Shown piece after piece: positions 2,680 to 59,393 of a DNA stretch of 64,000 bases (position 1 is its first letter; every line of letters starts with the position of its first letter). The position numbers and the translations under genes are program-made. The stretch comes from Roseomonas sp. CECT 9278 (GTDB taxonomy: Bacteria > Pseudomonadota > Alphaproteobacteria > Acetobacterales > Acetobacteraceae). The DNA lies in assembly GCF_918698155.1 (NCBI RefSeq), contig NZ_CAKKLX010000006.1:62001-126000 (forward strand), given 5' to 3'. The notes below the pieces were generated by a model. The model did no database searches. It was not told the DNA's origin and saw only the letters and a program-made list of their open reading frames with translations.

Positions 2680-4824
2680 ATGGCCACCGCAGACCTCGTC
2701 ATTGCCTTCGACGCCCGCATCGGGAACCTGGAAGCAGCGCTCAAGCGAACCGAGAGCGCGCTGCGTCGCACCGAGCGCACGTCCGAGAACGCCAGCCGCG
2801 CAATCGGCAACAGCATGTCGAGCGCCACCAGCCGTGCGAGCGCCGCGTTGGCCGGCCTGGGTCGCAACCTCCTAGCGGTCACAGCAGGCTACATTGCCCT
2901 CGACAAGGCCATCGGGGCCATCAGCAACGCCATCAGCCAGACCACGGCCCTGGCCAACGCCAGCCAGTCGCTGGGCGTCAGTGCGCGCGATCTGCTAGCC
3001 TTGCAAGGTGCCTTCCAGGCCGTGGGCGCCGACGCCGACAAGGCCACCGATGTGCTAGGCGAATTCCGCCTTGCGGTTGCCGAGGCCAGCCGCGGCGACG
3101 AGGCGAAGAACAACATCTTCGCGACGCTGGGCGTCGCGTTCCGCAACATCGACGGTTCGGCCCGTGACACCTCGCTTATCTTCGACGACCTGTCGTCGGC
3201 ATTTCGCGAAATGTCCAGCGACACCGAGCGCCTGGGCGTGGCGATGCAACTCTTCGGAGAAGACAACGCGCGCGTCGCCATTGCCGCGATGGCGCAACTC
3301 GGAGACACGCTGGCTTCCACGCAGACGAGGTCGGAGAGGTTCGGCGTCTCCCTCGCCACCGATGCCGTGGACAGCGTTCGGCGCCTGAGCCTCGCGTGGG
3401 ACGACCTGGGCTCCGTCATCAACACCGCCATAACGAATGCCATCGCGTTCGTCACGCCCGTGATTGCGACCTTCCTCGACTACATCACGAATGCCATCGC
3501 GTTCGTCATCAACAGAATTGAGGACATCGTCGGCACCTTCCGGTTGGTGGGCCAACTGTTCAACATCATCCCCACCTCGCCACTCGAGGCCGCGACCCGG
3601 CGCGTCACGCAACTCGACAACGCGATGCAGGGCCTGTTGCAGCAGGAACGGCGCCTGCTTGAGGCCCAACAGAACGCCAGCAGGGACCCGGACTCGTTCG
3701 CCGCGCAGCAGAACGCGGTGCTTCTGGCAGACGTCCAGGCCCGTGCGCAGGCCACGACCAACGAACTGGCCACCGCGCGGCGCGAACTCGCCGGGCTGCG
3801 CCGCGACGCCTCCCTGCCCCTACCACCCAACGCGCCGCAGACGCCCACGGCCATCGGCGGAGGCGGAGGTAGCGCGTCGCGCGCCGTGGATGAACTGGCA
3901 GCCGCCGCGCAGCGCCTGTATGACCAGACCAGGAACCCGTTGGAGAACTTTAACGCTTCCATCGCGCGAACCTTCGAACTGTTTAGCAGCGGCCGGCTTT
4001 CGGCCCTCGGCGGCATCGAGACCGTCACCCGGGCCGTGGAAACCTACGCCACGACGCTCAGCACGTCGCTCACGCAGGGTGGCGCCAGCGCCGAGCAGGC
4101 CCGCGCGAAGGTGGATGCCGCCCTGGCCGCGATGGGAGAGAGCCTCGCGGGTAGCGGCCTGTCATTTGAGCAGTGGCAAGCAATCGCGAAGCGCGCCACG
4201 GATGCCGTGGCGAGCGGTGCGCAGTCCACGGCGACCGCGCTGCAGAAGGCGAGCGACAGCGCCGCGGAAGCAATCGACGGGCAGTTCAGCGCCACGCTGG
4301 CCGCACTTGGCACCGGGGCCGTGTCATTCGAAGATGCATGGAAGAAGACCCTCTCAAGCATCCTGAGTTCGGTCATCGACTTCGTCTACAAGATGACCAT
4401 CCAGGCGGCCATCCTACAGACGCTCAAGGCAGCCTTCAATGCGTTCGGTGGGGCCATCGGCACGCCACCGCCGGGCAGCGGGGGCAGCACGGGCCAGGGC
4501 CGCGCCTTCGCGGGCTTCCCTGCGGAGGGTGGCGACGGCGGCGGGGGCGTGGCGCGCGCGCTGTCCTTCGGAAGCGAGGGCGGCACCATCGGGCGCGGGC
4601 TGGTAATCCCGGACCCGCAGGCCCGCGGCGGTGGCGACGTGAACATCGTCGTGAACAACACGGCACCAAACACCAGGGCGACCGCAACCGAGCGGACGAA
4701 CAGCCTGGGGGGCCGCGAGATTGAAATCGCCGTGGTGGCCCTTGTCCAAGATGCGATGGCCAAGGGCCAGATGGACGGCGTCATGCGGCAGTCATTCGGC
4801 GTTGCGCGCCGGGGGGCTATCTAG
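2680..4824 (+). CDS. Phage tail tape measure protein
   Basis: A 714-residue tail tape measure protein. In phages this spans the tail lumen and sets tail length. It begins with long amphipathic helices (residues 1-65) and a GxG-rich hydrophobic stretch. It has a central hydrophobic region in which the octapeptide ITNAIAFV occurs twice (about residues 249 and 268, encoded near 3433 and 3484), and helical heptads at ~310-390. The C-terminal module (about 548-594, DAWKKTLSSILSSVIDFVYK) is typical of tape measure C-terminal domains, followed by a Gly-rich region. AGGAG-like sequence precedes the ATG by ~12 bases. Oddly, no minor tail or fibre genes follow: the integrase is immediately convergent and the two stop codons overlap. 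This implies a truncated or minimal element. Confidence 0.85.
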   Translation: MATADLVIAFDARIGNLEAALKRTESALRRTERTSENASRAIGNSMSSATSRASAALAGLGRNLLAVTAGYIALDKAIGAISNAISQTTALANASQSLGVSARDLLALQGAFQAVGADADKATDVLGEFRLAVAEASRGDEAKNNIFATLGVAFRNIDGSARDTSLIFDDLSSAFREMSSDTERLGVAMQLFGEDNARVAIAAMAQLGDTLASTQTRSERFGVSLATDAVDSVRRLSLAWDDLGSVINTAITNAIAFVTPVIATFLDYITNAIAFVINRIEDIVGTFRLVGQLFNIIPTSPLEAATRRVTQLDNAMQGLLQQERRLLEAQQNASRDPDSFAAQQNAVLLADVQARAQATTNELATARRELAGLRRDASLPLPPNAPQTPTAIGGGGGSASRAVDELAAAAQRLYDQTRNPLENFNASIARTFELFSSGRLSALGGIETVTRAVETYATTLSTSLTQGGASAEQARAKVDAALAAMGESLAGSGLSFEQWQAIAKRATDAVASGAQSTATALQKASDSAAEAIDGQFSATLAALGTGAVSFEDAWKKTLSSILSSVIDFVYKMTIQAAILQTLKAAFNAFGGAIGTPPPGSGGSTGQGRAFAGFPAEGGDGGGGVARALSFGSEGGTIGRGLVIPDPQARGGGDVNIVVNNTAPNTRATATERTNSLGGREIEIAVVALVQDAMAKGQMDGVMRQSFGVARRGAI

Positions 4825-4830
4825 CCCCCC
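4811..4830. terminator. Perfect inverted repeat spanning both convergent stops
   Basis: GGGGGGCTA (4811-4819) is mirrored by TAGCCCCCC (4822-4830) with only TC between. The tape measure stop (4822-4824) and the integrase stop (4821-4823, minus strand) both fall inside it. In RNA, a 7-8 bp very stable hairpin would form on either transcript. Neither side has a T-run, so it may act as a bidirectional barrier rather than a classical intrinsic terminator. Confidence 0.5.
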
Positions 4831-5840
4831 ATCCTCTCCGTGAGCGCGGCCAGCACTTCGGCCTCATTCACCCGGCTATAGACGCGCAGCGTGGTGCTGG
4901 TGTTCCCCGTATGGCCGCTGAACCTCTGCACGACAGGCAGGGGCACCGAATTCATAAGCCATTCCGTGATGACCATGGCGCGCAGGTCATGTGCGGTGTT
5001 CTCAAGCCCGAGCCGATCGAACAGACGCCGGATGCGCATGCTATAGACCAGCGTGCGATGCGGCCATGCCCGGCCCCCGCCCGCGTCGATGCGCCTGTTG
5101 ACCAACTCCGCAAGGTCCAGGCCCCGGATGACGGGCAGGGGGATGATGGCCGCCTTCGGGCCTCGCGGGTCTTTTCTCCGGACCGCCTGCGCGCGGCCGT
5201 CCGGACCGTGCCGCGTCTCCGCCGAAAACTGCAGAGCCTCCCCCATGCGCAGAGGGAGGTGCGCGAGCAGGGTTATCAGGTCCCTTGTCTCGTCGTCCCG
5301 GGCCGCCGCCGCCGCTTCCATAGCCTGCGCGAAGGTTATCCGGGCCGTGCGCACCTTGGACCGACCTATCAGGCCCATCCCGGTTGCCGTGGACCGCGCC
5401 TCCTCGAGGGCGTTCACATTGACAGGTAGGTTGCGGGCGTCCTTCGCCCCGCGCATGGCCGCGGTCAGATAGGACAGGAACGACGCCCGGGTCGCAGGTC
5501 CCCGACCTTCCATGTCCTTCAACCAGGCTATTACCCTGGTCTTGCTCAGGTCGCGCAGCGGAACGAGGCCAATCTCGCGCCGGATGACGGCGAGGGTGTT
5601 CTCCTTATTCTGACCCCATGCCTTGCTGTCCGCGAAGTCTGCAACATAGCCGTCGATGGCGTCTGCCACCGTGCGCGCCGGCCCTGCACGCCCGACAACC
5701 TCACCTCTGCGAATGCCGGCTTCTGTCGCCGTTATCCACGCCTGAGCGTCTGCCTTCGTGCTGAAAGTTCTAAACTGCGACTGCCCGTCGCGGCGCACAG
5801 CCGCGGTCCAGGCCCCCGACCTCTGCCTCAGACTTCCCAT
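4821..5840 (-). CDS. int: Tyrosine recombinase / phage integrase
   Basis: A 339-residue site-specific tyrosine recombinase. An N-terminal arm-binding-like segment (residues 1-60, GSLRQRSGAWTAAVRRDGQ) precedes a SAM-like core-binding domain (~65-165) and the catalytic domain (~180-339). The catalytic set is complete: Arg198 in LRMGE, His284 and Arg287 in HDLRAM, His310 in SGHTGNT and the nucleophile Tyr321 in VYSRV. I chose the start at 5840 because AGGAGGGG lies 7 bases upstream; an open frame reaching 5921 has no such site. It is expected to integrate and excise the element to its left. Its upstream region carries repeated CCGGGCGTGTCA motifs. The chromosomal gene beyond it, nadE, is intact. 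Confidence 0.9.
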   Translation of the reverse strand: MGSLRQRSGAWTAAVRRDGQSQFRTFSTKADAQAWITATEAGIRRGEVVGRAGPARTVADAIDGYVADFADSKAWGQNKENTLAVIRREIGLVPLRDLSKTRVIAWLKDMEGRGPATRASFLSYLTAAMRGAKDARNLPVNVNALEEARSTATGMGLIGRSKVRTARITFAQAMEAAAAARDDETRDLITLLAHLPLRMGEALQFSAETRHGPDGRAQAVRRKDPRGPKAAIIPLPVIRGLDLAELVNRRIDAGGGRAWPHRTLVYSMRIRRLFDRLGLENTAHDLRAMVITEWLMNSVPLPVVQRFSGHTGNTSTTLRVYSRVNEAEVLAALTERMGG

Positions 5841-24456: not shown

Positions 24457-24531
24457 GGGCGCGTAGCTCAGCGGTAGAGCATTCGCTTCACACGCGAAGG
24501 GTCACAGGTTCAATCCCTGTCGCGCCCACCA
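24457..24531 (+). tRNA. tRNA-Val (anticodon CAC)
   Basis: A 75-nt tRNA with encoded CCA. The acceptor stem GGGCGCG (24457-24463) pairs with CGCGCCC (24521-24527), followed by discriminator A and CCA at 24529-24531. D arm GCTCAGCGGTAGAGC, anticodon stem TTCGC/GCGAA with loop TTCACAC giving anticodon CAC, and T arm ACAGGTTCAATCCCTGT are all canonical. A structured repeat begins seven bases after its 3' end. Confidence 0.97.
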
Positions 24532-24537
24532 ACTTTC

Positions 24538-24716
24538 CTTGTTCCCTCAGACGCCGGGCGGCCCGCATCCGCGGGGGTATGGCTTGTTCCCTCAGGCGCC
24601 GGGCGGCCCGCATCCGCGGGCCTTGGCTTCGCGCCGCTTGATGGCGTATGGGCGGCGACTGGTGGGTTGGGCGCGGTCGCGCCGTGCGCTCCCGGCCCGA
24701 GGCAGGCCTCGGGCCG
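24538..24716 (+). repeat. Structured dispersed repeat, copy A
   Basis: First of three related intergenic elements (others at 52754-52886 and 59251-59393). Module 1 is duplicated here in tandem (24538-24575 and 24583-24620, 45-bp period): a CCCTC box, then a hairpin with loop ATCC (second unit stem GGCCCGC/GCGGGCC). The conserved core GGGCGCGGTCGCGC (24669-24682), two variable bases and TGCGCTCCCGG follows. The last CGG opens a perfect 10-bp hairpin (24693-24702 with 24707-24716, loop CAGG). It lies between tRNA-Val and the convergent EF-hand gene. Confidence 0.8.
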
Positions 24717-34985: not shown

Positions 34986-35075
34986 AGGCAGCGGTGAGGC
35001 CTTGCCTCCCTCTGCTTTTCTTGGACGTTTCCTCCCTAAACTTGGCGGTGCCTTCGGGCACCGCCTTCTTTTTTT
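34986..35075 (+). ncRNA. AbcR / alpha-r15-type small regulatory RNA
   Basis: A ~90-nt candidate trans-acting small RNA in an otherwise empty gap. It contains CTTGGACGTTTCCTCCCT (35020-35037), which I recall as the signature of alphaproteobacterial AbcR (alpha-r15) RNAs. The anti-Shine-Dalgarno heptamer CCTCCCT occurs twice (35005-35011 and 35031-35037). The second is presented in a hairpin loop closed by GTTT/AAAC, and a perfect intrinsic terminator ends the transcript. AbcR RNAs bind Hfq and repress mRNAs of solute-binding proteins by masking their ribosome sites. The four Bug-type binding proteins in this window are conceivable targets. Family membership rests on motif memory; the promoter-terminator layout is seen directly. 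Confidence 0.75.
35044..35075 (+). terminator. Intrinsic terminator of the small RNA
   Basis: GGCGGTGCC (35044-35052), tetraloop TTCG and GGCACCGCC (35057-35065) form a perfect 9-bp stem followed by TTCTTTTTTT. It is the clearest rho-independent terminator in the window, yet no plus-strand protein gene precedes it; this is what reveals the small RNA. A further hairpin GCATGGG/CCCATGC (35089-35110) serves the opposite-strand gene ending at 35120. Confidence 0.92.
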
Positions 35076-35119
35076 CCGGGTCATGGGAGCATGGGTTTCT
35101 CCGCCCATGCTGCACTGCA

Positions 35120-35992: not shown

Positions 35993-36100
35993 CGGCTTCC
36001 GACCAAACCATAGCGCCCGCGCCGTGTCACGCGGCACGCGCCGGGGGCGCCCCCGGCGGGGTTAGCGAAATAGTCAGCAGCGCCTGCCACCTTGCGCGCG

Positions 36101-52015: not shown

Positions 52016-52753
52016 ATGCTGAAGAAGATCGCCGGTTTCGCCCTCGGCCTCGGATTGCTCGCCGCGCCTGCCACCGCGCAGGTCGAACTCGGCAGCGGCT
52101 TCACCGCCACCGGGACAGTCATCGGCACCACCGACTACGTGTTCCGCAACATCAGCCAGACGCGCAGCCGGCCGGCCGTGCAGGGTTCGGTCGAGCTCTC
52201 GCACGAGATCGGCCTGTATGTCGGCGCCTTCGCGAGCAACGTCACCTTCCCCAACACCAATGCGCGCCAGGAAGTCGACGGCATCGTCGGCTATCGCCGC
52301 ACGATCGGCGCCTTCACCTTCGACATCAGCGGCGTCTACTACGGCTATCCGGGCTACAGCGCGCAGCCGGGCCAGTATGACATCGACTTCGCCGAGGCCG
52401 TGCTCAAGCTGAAATACGACCTGGACCCGGTCACCATCGTCGGCACGGCGGCCTGGTCGCCGGACTATTTCGGGTCCTCCGGCAACAGCGTGTGGCTGGA
52501 AGCCGGGATCGACTGGAAGACCCCGGTGCTCGACGCCGTGGTGTCGGGGCGCATCGGCTACCAGTGGATCGACAACAACGCCCGCTTCGGCGCGCCGGAC
52601 TACCTCGCCTACAGCATCTACCTGACGGTGCCGATCCGCTACGGCTTCTCGGTCGGCGGCGGCTTCTACGGCACCGACATCAGCCAGAGCCAGTGCGGCG
52701 GGCTGAAGGTCTGCGACAACCGCTTCATCGCCTTCGCGAGCTGGACTTTTTAG
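52016..52753 (+). CDS. TorF-family putative outer membrane porin
   Basis: A 245-residue outer membrane beta-barrel of the TorF type. A signal peptide (MLKKIAGFALGLGLLAAPATAQ) precedes a barrel of alternating hydrophobic strands, beginning GFTATGTVIGTTDYVFRNISQTRSRPAVQGSVEL, typical of the family. Two cysteines (CGGLKVC) lie near the C-terminus, which ends in ASWTF with the terminal aromatic residue required for Bam insertion. It probably forms a diffusion channel, a reasonable outer-membrane partner for the nearby Bug proteins, although that pairing is inference. The in-frame extension to 51926 is not needed. The repeat element begins right after its stop. Confidence 0.87.
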   Translation: MLKKIAGFALGLGLLAAPATAQVELGSGFTATGTVIGTTDYVFRNISQTRSRPAVQGSVELSHEIGLYVGAFASNVTFPNTNARQEVDGIVGYRRTIGAFTFDISGVYYGYPGYSAQPGQYDIDFAEAVLKLKYDLDPVTIVGTAAWSPDYFGSSGNSVWLEAGIDWKTPVLDAVVSGRIGYQWIDNNARFGAPDYLAYSIYLTVPIRYGFSVGGGFYGTDISQSQCGGLKVCDNRFIAFASWTF

Positions 52754-52886
52754 TTTGACCCTCAAGCGGCGGGCGGCGGGCATCCGCCCGCCTTGCCTGC
52801 GCGCCACGCACTGCTGCGCCGGGGTCGACTGACGGTCTGGGCGCGGTCGCGCCTTGCGCTCCCGGATCGCGCCGTCGCGCGATCCG
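52754..52886 (+). repeat. Structured dispersed repeat, copy B
   Basis: Starts at the base after the porin stop. Module 1 has the CCCTC box and a perfect 7-bp hairpin GGCGGGC/GCCCGCC with loop ATCC. The middle contains CGCA-CTGC-TGCG. The core GGGCGCGGTCGCGC is at 52839-52852, then two variable bases and TGCGCTCCCGG (52855-52865). The final perfect 10-bp hairpin is CGGATCGCGC (52863-52872) with GCGCGATCCG (52877-52886), loop CGTC. It lies between the porin and the convergent flavin monooxygenase gene. Confidence 0.85.
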
Positions 52887-58506: not shown

Positions 58507-59220
58507 ATGTCCAGCGTTCCGGTTGGTCCCCTTCCCCCGCAGGATGCGGCGTCGCGCGCGATCGCCGCGCTGTCGGGCTTCCTTGGTTCCGCCGACCGTG
58601 CCGCGGCGCGGCTGCCGATGGCCAAGCGCGCGGCCGACATCGCGATCGCCGGCACCGCGCTGCTGCTGGCCGCGCCCTTCTTCCTGGTGGTCGCGCTGCT
58701 GGTGCGCGCCGATGGCGGCGCGGTGTTCTACGCGCATCCGCGCGTCGGCCGGTTCGGGCGCATCTTCGGCTGCCTCAAGTTCCGCTCGATGGTGATGGAC
58801 AGCCAGGCGCGGCTCGATGCGCTGCTGGCCGCCGACCCCGCGGCGCGCGCCGAATGGGACGCCACCCGCAAGCTGAAGAACGACCCGCGCGTGACCCGCA
58901 TCGGCGCCTTCCTGCGCGCCACCTCGCTCGATGAGCTGCCGCAGCTGATCAACGTGCTGCGCGGGGAGATGAGCATCGTCGGCCCGCGCCCGGTCACCCA
59001 GGCCGAGCTCGACCGTCACTACGGCGCGGCGGCGGCGCATTACGTCACGGTGCGCCCGGGCATCACCGGCCTGTGGCAGGTCAGCGGGCGGTCCGAGACG
59101 ACCTACGACCAGCGCGTGGCGCTCGACGTGGCCTATGTCTCGCAGCCCTCGATGATGGCGGATGTCCGCATCCTGCTGAAGACGCCGTTGGCCGTGCTGT
59201 CGCGCCGCGGCGCGCACTGA
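58507..59220 (+). CDS. Undecaprenyl-phosphate sugar-1-phosphate transferase
   Basis: A 237-residue bacterial sugar transferase (ExoY/WcaJ catalytic-core type) that loads the first sugar phosphate onto undecaprenyl phosphate to start polysaccharide synthesis. The signature order is KRAADIAIAGTALLLAAPFFLVVALLVRADGG (membrane hairpin), FYAHPRVGRFGRIFGCLKFRSMVMDS, TSLDELPQLINVLRGEMSIVGPRPV (catalytic Asp-Glu) and RPGITGLWQVSGRSETTYDQRVALDVAYV. ATG 58507 is preferred; see the upstream region for a longer option. It heads the rightward surface polysaccharide locus. Confidence 0.93.
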   Translation: MSSVPVGPLPPQDAASRAIAALSGFLGSADRAAARLPMAKRAADIAIAGTALLLAAPFFLVVALLVRADGGAVFYAHPRVGRFGRIFGCLKFRSMVMDSQARLDALLAADPAARAEWDATRKLKNDPRVTRIGAFLRATSLDELPQLINVLRGEMSIVGPRPVTQAELDRHYGAAAAHYVTVRPGITGLWQVSGRSETTYDQRVALDVAYVSQPSMMADVRILLKTPLAVLSRRGAH

Positions 59221-59250: not shown

Positions 59251-59393
59251 GTTTGATTCTTCATGACCCTCGGATGGCGGGCGGGCGGCATCCGCCGGCC
59301 TTGCCTTCGCGCCGCGCACTGGTGCGCTGGGGGCAACGGACGGTCTGGGCGCGGTCGCGCTGTGCGCTCCCGGATCGCGCCTGGCGCGATCCG
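59251..59393 (+). repeat. Structured dispersed repeat, copy C
   Basis: Contains the CCCTC box, module 1 hairpin with the same ATCC loop (six of seven pairs kept), and a middle palindrome GCGCAC-TG-GTGCGC. The core GGGCGCGGTCGCGC is at 59347-59360, then two variable bases and TGCGCTCCCGG (59363-59373). The final hairpin is CGGATCGCGC (59371-59380) with GCGCGATCCG (59384-59393), loop CTG. Relative to copy B it carries ~10 extra bases (ATTCTTCATG) before the CCCTC box. It sits in the 311-bp gap between the sugar transferase and the flippase. Confidence 0.85.

Follow-up and report, generated by a model that had tools for sequence, protein, structure and literature searches.

Short multi-hairpin DNA elements of a single family are dispersed between the genes of Roseomonas sp. 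CECT 9278 and its relatives. Three copies lie in a 64,000-nucleotide stretch of this genome (hereafter the window), but the family extends well beyond these three, its stems covary and its copies are enriched at gene ends. Because the copies are numerous, intergenic and either present or absent at orthologous sites, they can be classed as a non-autonomous dispersed repeat. With moderate confidence, we propose that these DNA elements are mobile still or were until recently, that they depend on a trans-acting enzyme, that they occupy gene borders where they do little harm, and that their GAGG motif could act as a ribosome-binding site. A preliminary description of this DNA had offered a REP/BIME-like element, a transcript-end element or a non-autonomous mobile element as options. 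The last is the best supported, given the dispersal of the copies, their presence or absence at orthologous sites and their arrays.

The repeat unit and its distribution

A 27-base core (GGGCGCGGTCGCGCNNTGCGCTCCCGG) matches exactly at three plus-strand sites and nowhere else in the window when up to three mismatches are allowed, and 100 shuffles gave no match. The three copies that had been noted are therefore real, and their CCCTC box, their hairpin with an ATCC loop, and their final stems that differ yet remain paired were all found as described. The copies and associated features are as follows.

24544-24579, plus strand: truncated left half copy (CCCTC box and first hairpin), immediately upstream of full copy A
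24589-24716, plus strand: full copy A (CCCTC 24589-24593; core 24669-24695; terminal hairpin 24693-24716)
36022-36061, minus strand: probable empty site with a terminator-like hairpin; the element is present at the orthologous locus (L128) of Neoroseomonas alba
52747-52758, plus strand: T-rich leader of copy B, overlapping the TAG stop (52751-52753) of predicted gene 52016-52753
52759-52886, plus strand: copy B (CCCTC 52759-52763; hairpin I 52775-52792; core 52839-52865; hairpin III 52849-52859; terminal hairpin 52863-52886)
59267-59393, plus strand: copy C (CCCTC 59267-59271; hairpin I 59283-59300, with one G.G mismatch; core 59347-59373; terminal hairpin 59371-59393)

Some details of the preliminary description needed revision. 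Copy A had been given as 24538-24716, but the full copy occupies only the 3' part of this interval and the 5' part is the separate half copy. This left-half fragment is perhaps the leftover of an earlier array. The claim that all stems are perfectly paired holds for the final stems but not for the first stem of copy C. Two core positions had been called variable bases, and we now assign them to the three-base loop of a short hairpin, GCGC-NNT-GCGC, as its two N positions. All three copies share one orientation, as claimed, but they do not all lie just 3' of a plus-strand gene: copy A follows tRNA-Val (24457-24531), and the closest protein gene predicted upstream of this copy runs on the minus strand. 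The gene whose stop codon marks the start of copy B has a Gcw_chp match. A hairpin and a T-rich stretch precede copy C, behind the stop of predicted gene 58618-59220, which has a bacterial sugar transferase match. A long-range pairing in copy B (52800-52804 with 52841-52845) is derived from the alignment only, is nearly invariant, and is absent from the minimum-energy fold.

Each unit is approximately 140 bp long and begins with a T-rich leader (about 10 nt), followed by a CCTC box and a chain of short hairpins, the last of which is the terminal hairpin. Across the 5.44-Mb genome (113 contigs), the exact core occurs 66 times (39 forward and 27 reverse), with none for a reversed-pattern control. 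The covariance-model search of this genome and its relatives that had been proposed was run with a model built from 96 copies. In the own genome, the model matched 149 of 150 scored candidates, and the resulting count of at least 149 copies is a lower bound because only 150 candidates were scored. In almost every scored copy, short hairpins follow one another in a chain, and their stems keep Watson-Crick pairing although they vary. On contigs C27, C34, C79 and C100 (also C47 and C51) of this genome (G000), element copies lie about 200 bases or less from a contig end. Copy numbers may be underestimates, because arrays may break the assembly and leave copies near contig ends.

Of 59 searched genomes, 16 contain the exact core; they include our genome and all belong to one genus. 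Model matches number 12 to at least 94 in each of these 16 element-rich genomes, compared with 0 to 6 in the remaining 19 congeners (35 genomes in all). Among the matches listed, most named records that carry the core are from species or MAGs of Neoroseomonas and Roseomonas, while Rhodovarius lipocyclicus and a Roseomonas mucosa MAG contribute a single record apiece. Across the order, the full model matched 80 of 395 genomes, which represent 17 of 84 genera, at E <= 0.001 (the E-values are rough), and a strict left-module pattern (CCTCARNCGCCGGCG, a stretch with TCCG, and CTTGGCT) matched 51 of these genomes and 8 genera, with 0 matches for the control. The weak matches elsewhere in the genus represent a related element about 100 nt long whose left module is similar (congener loci L257-L283), often with a CGGATCG/CGATCCG hairpin directly before the CCTC box.

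In genera g29, g73 and g79, 31 units from 29 stretches were chosen by the left module only, using a pattern that does not demand the first stem. This stem is nonetheless perfect, with at least four pairs, in 27 of the 31; a third hairpin with the tetraloop [AG]T[TC][CT] is found in 26, and a terminal hairpin follows it in 21. The predicted architecture is common to at least these three genera, though the stems differ. Copy B had no match in plasmid and phage collections. No Rfam family matched the element in the window at its gathering threshold; the best match around copy B (E = 0.32) is far below the gathering score.

Covariation of the stems

The preliminary description argued that compensatory changes in the stems point to a selected structure. 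In an alignment of 96 copies, 98.0% of cells are paired and 233 cells carry double changes, compared with a shuffled mean of 80 and with 17 to 29 in slid controls, and the covariation score is 0.291 versus 0.078. Covariation across the family is therefore real and strong. The signal sits in hairpin I and the terminal hairpin, and the two inner helices are uninformative because they hardly vary, partly since the copies were chosen by their core. The outer pair beside hairpin I also covaries: among 141 distinct pattern-fitting sequences, it is C-G in 88, G-C in 51 and mismatched in 2. The further step from covariation to selection is weaker, as both arms of a stem seem to change together.

Structured RNA is expected to prefer G.U to A.C pairs. 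Among 3,907 stem pairs from 246 non-redundant copies, 3,824 are Watson-Crick, 14 are G.T and 22 are A.C. These pairs come from the 231 terminal and 241 first hairpins above a pairing threshold (15 and 5 of 246 were left out), which raises the Watson-Crick share but acts equally on G.T and A.C. A small control of nine tRNA genes from the same loci has six G.T and no A.C among 108 pairs. Between orthologous copies, terminal-stem pairs show 128 changes on both sides with pairing kept versus 36 that are one-sided or unpaired (103 comparisons at flank identities of 84-97%, with some locus pairs counted both ways and badly paired hairpins excluded); replacement of a whole copy by another would likewise yield changes on both sides. 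Because G.T is no commoner than A.C and both arms change together, we do not regard the covariation as proving that RNA structure is selected. The stem changes are at least equally compatible with palindromes at the DNA level or with template-switch repair. When folded as single-stranded DNA, copy B is clearly better than its shuffles (0 of 200 were as good), and the effect is weaker for copies C (5 of 200) and A (7 of 200).

Placement beside genes and occupancy of orthologous sites

From 250 distinct copies, three without flanks were left out. Nineteen of the 247 others have no recognized CCCTC box; these were given a default offset for placement and were excluded from the empty-site, identity and orthologous-stem comparisons. 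Merging yielded 187 places, which hold one unit (143), two units (31), three units (10) or four units (3), and 44 of the 187 are thus arrays. Genes were called with our own codon-model script, and only 1 of the 187 places falls within a predicted gene. Ten places that lie inside a gene or lack two usable neighbors were dropped.

The remaining 177 places are strongly biased with respect to the orientation of their neighbors: 4 are divergent, 55 convergent and 118 codirectional, compared with 91, 58 and 225, respectively, among 374 background gaps longer than 60 nt. Both the deficit between divergent genes (p = 8e-13) and the excess between convergent genes (p = 4e-5) should be conservative, because the background gaps were taken from the window and from loci of at least 7 kb that were mostly chosen for holding the element, and element-bearing gaps remain among them. 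In codirectional contexts, 80 of the 118 copies are in the sense orientation and 38 are antisense (p = 1e-4). Position behind a same-strand gene, which had been described for all copies, is a family-wide bias (135 of 177 placed copies) but not a rule, since 42 of the 177 have no such gene.

Sequence at the left end of the unit was compared for 156 copies, after 21 of the 177 without CCTC in the expected stretch were dropped. In the 116 sense copies, positions 3 to 10 before the CCTC box are 46-76% T, with a sharp edge. In the sense orientation, 59 of 135 copies have a stop codon whose end falls in the interval from 11 nt ahead of the element start to 12 nt within the element. Antisense copies instead turn GAGG, the reverse complement of CCTC, toward the start codon of the neighboring gene. 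Twenty of 40 antisense copies have CAT (ATG on the complementary strand) at a distance of 5-11 nt from CCTC, compared with 6 of 116 in the sense orientation (p = 1.5e-9). The borders of called genes fall at a distance of 6-9 nt in 22 of 42 antisense versus 14 of 135 sense copies (p = 4e-8). Judged from sequence, this spacing fits a Shine-Dalgarno function that is selected for spacing, and from it we infer that GAGG may serve as a ribosome-binding site. A leader of fixed length that abuts genes could also create the spacing, although the wider spread at stop codons makes this seem less likely.

Loci B and C were compared against whole genomes. At locus C, the element is present in 6 of the 16 element-rich genomes and absent from the other 10, and it is absent from 14 loci of other congeners. 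For locus B, 25 loci with both flanks were found, and the element occurs in 8 of these, all from element-rich genomes (8 of 10, with G001 and G004 lacking it) and in none of the other 15. Those 15 element-free sites carry a GC hairpin followed by a T-run, like an ordinary terminator.

A broader comparison began with 124 single copies that have clean flanks, 62 of which have an orthologous site among the compared loci. Among 189 pairs of orthologous sites (repeats of one place included), 152 are occupied on both sides and at most 37 are not, the latter being an upper figure because at least one of them holds the element in the opposite orientation. This case (L065 versus L306 and L038) was scored as empty by our script; the occurrence of opposite orientations at one site in two species suggests independent insertions. 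Locus L085 is ambiguous. The empty and filled pairs defined no exact insertion joint, and the clear empty sites differ from filled ones by extra DNA on both sides. In the clearest pairs (L183/L135, L128/window and L099/L138), extra bases flank the hairpin-defined unit on each side, which suggests a weak G/T-rich tail of about 25 nt beyond it.

Orthologous copies diverge fast. Their median identity is 0.86 for 21 pairs with approximately 91% flank identity and 0.80 for 12 pairs at approximately 82% flank identity, the latter being near the 0.79 of random pairs. The best match of a copy at another locus of its own genome reaches at most 0.93 (median 0.90; n = 74), and a recent burst is not seen because own-genome copies are not near-identical. 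Copies are slightly nearer to those of their own genome than to those of other species (45 of 72, with 4 ties; medians 0.867 versus 0.853).

Candidate mechanisms and relation to known repeats

We infer that an enzyme drives mobility and recognizes folded DNA. A trans-acting activity would recognize the folded strand and copy or move the element, and the enzyme is probably neither a Y1 or Y2 HUH transposase nor a reverse transcriptase. Tandem arrays would arise afterwards through duplication. Insertions would survive where harm is small, that is, just after stop codons, tRNA ends and terminators, and antisense insertions would survive directly before a start codon, where the GAGG of the element may replace the ribosome-binding site. 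A bolder version, which we regard as doubtful, is that the family represents a new kind of mobile element: a folded multi-hairpin DNA strand that would operate without terminal inverted repeats, target duplication, or an HUH transposase or reverse transcriptase in the host. Its left end would double as a T-rich stop or terminator tail in one orientation and as a ribosome-binding site in the other, so that the element could sit flush with genes and inside operons without silencing them.

Enzyme searches covered Y1 and Y2 transposases and reverse transcriptases. They bear first on mobilization of a REP/REPIN by a RAYT (Y1) transposase, a reading that would suit the high copy number, palindromes and intergenic positions but that we consider very improbable. 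The check for a REP-associated transposase (TnpA-REP/RAYT) gave no Y1 match (PF01797) in the 16 element-rich genomes, 15 of which are drafts that might lack a repeated gene (the exception, G010, consists of one contig), and the sole match among the 35 genomes of the genus is in element-poor G027. Furthermore, neither of the motifs GTAG and CGTC occurs in the 25-nt stretch at the foot of the terminal hairpin in any of 120 copies (elsewhere in the element, GTAG is found in 4 of 120 and CGTC in 36 of 120), a test that concerns the terminal hairpin only and a stretch largely fixed by the core used for choosing copies. The unit, at about 140 bp with several hairpins, also argues against the REP/BIME-like option in its RAYT sense.

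Several other mobilizers and classes were likewise unsupported. A Y2 (IS91-like) transposase (PF04986) was found in none of the 16 element-rich genomes and in 1 of the 35 genomes of the genus (G023), this match being the only gauge of sensitivity, as 14 control genomes gave 0. Reverse transcriptase (PF00078), as expected for a retro-element such as a group II intron or retron, is present in 3 of the 16 (G012, G014 and G028) and not in our genome. A MITE with terminal repeats and target duplication finds no support: the 5' end shares an 8-mer with the reverse complement of the 3' end in just 7 of 120 copies, and the best fixed offset for a target-site duplication applies to 4 of 120, compared with maxima of 2-4 in 20 runs with shuffled partners, although a short or shifting duplication could escape because the element ends are uncertain. 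Within these enzyme classes, no mobilizing gene was found, nor was an autonomous full-length relative.

Upkeep by mutation and recombination would dispense with dedicated transposition. Template switching would perfect the palindromes, and gene conversion and unequal crossing-over would both disperse and amplify the copies. The joint change of both arms in the orthologous terminal stems (128 versus 36) is what this explanation predicts, such simultaneous change being a documented outcome of template switching (PMC8794818), and the slightly higher resemblance within a genome (45 of 72) also agrees with it. We nonetheless consider it rather unlikely, because it leaves the colonized sites between unrelated genes unexplained and because the third and terminal hairpins shared across three genera (26 and 21 of 31) suggest a constrained unit. 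The family might instead be a host-functional 3'-end or terminator module, kept by selection because it ends or stabilizes transcripts as RNA. In addition to the same-strand upstream gene of 135 of the 177 copies, 31 of 115 sense copies and 1 of 37 antisense copies have a perfect hairpin of at least seven pairs immediately ahead of the leader (four more copies were too close to a locus end for this test), compared with 3 and 6 of 115 in sense controls; at least five of these 31 hairpins are terminal hairpins of the element type, left over from earlier units. A tRNA gene lies within 140 nt upstream of 7 of the 156 tested copies, and six of these genes end 9-17 nt before CCTC. Within arrays, a terminal hairpin precedes the T-rich leader of the next unit, and the RNA fold of copy B is better than that of all 200 shuffles. 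However, no T-run follows the terminal hairpin on average (T is at most 0.33 at every right-flank position of 156 copies), G.U is not enriched over A.C, 38 of the 118 codirectional copies are antisense, and occupancy of a given locus is patchy between related species. A terminator module thus seems unlikely, and the earlier transcript-end option survives as a possible side effect.

The preferred reading, a mobile non-autonomous DNA element, can be set beside known repeats. Integron attC sites also lie just after genes in the same orientation, are conserved in structure more than in sequence, and act as folded single strands. Their core sites are RYYYAAC and GTTRRRY; the former is found in 0 and the latter in 24 of 120 copies of the Roseomonas element, and no cassettes were seen, an outcome that does not support this class. 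Whereas BOX repeats an inner module, the Roseomonas family repeats whole units, lacks terminal inverted repeats, and has an antisense end that matches a ribosome-binding site. BOX of Streptococcus pneumoniae is nevertheless similar in being a structured small repeat that is over-represented between convergent genes and that supplies the stop codon of the upstream gene in 36 cases, which makes it a precedent for stop codons contributed by a repeat; its terminal inverted repeats resemble those of an insertion sequence (PMC3049150). REP/REPIN sequences with RAYT share high-copy intergenic palindromes that are possibly recognized as folded DNA, and the CGTC repeats, mostly alphaproteobacterial palindromes without a known transposase, pose a comparable puzzle but are reported as missing from Acetobacteraceae in the closest account that we found (PMC3733652). 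The Roseomonas family differs from the former in the enzyme, motif and unit described above, and from the latter in lacking CGTC around the foot of the terminal hairpin. CIR (Caulobacter) and ERIC (enterobacteria) are similar in size to the Roseomonas element; we know of no match between them and this family. They too are intergenic repeats, and the mobility of CIR is unclear (PMC2229807).

The accessible parts of the literature on repeats in Roseomonas, Acetobacteraceae and Rhodospirillales contained no account of this family, which is undescribed as far as we have seen. We class it as a variant of the known non-autonomous small repeats because the usual marks of mobilization are absent and its ends lie at gene borders. 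The family is abundant and, with model matches in 17 of the 84 genera of the order, may sit unannotated beside many genes. It provides a natural test of how small elements spread without a recognizable transposase, and of whether covarying DNA stems come from selection or from template switching. Carrying a ribosome-binding site would be one way in which insertions inside operons could be tolerated.

The window also includes a weak phage-integrase match, just below the Pfam cut-off (4821-5669, minus strand), that adjoins a long open reading frame without a Pfam match (2680-4824, plus strand). Together, they suggest a putative integrated island. A separate Rfam match to the suhB/mmgR small RNA lies at 35007-35080 (plus strand, 59.8 bits).
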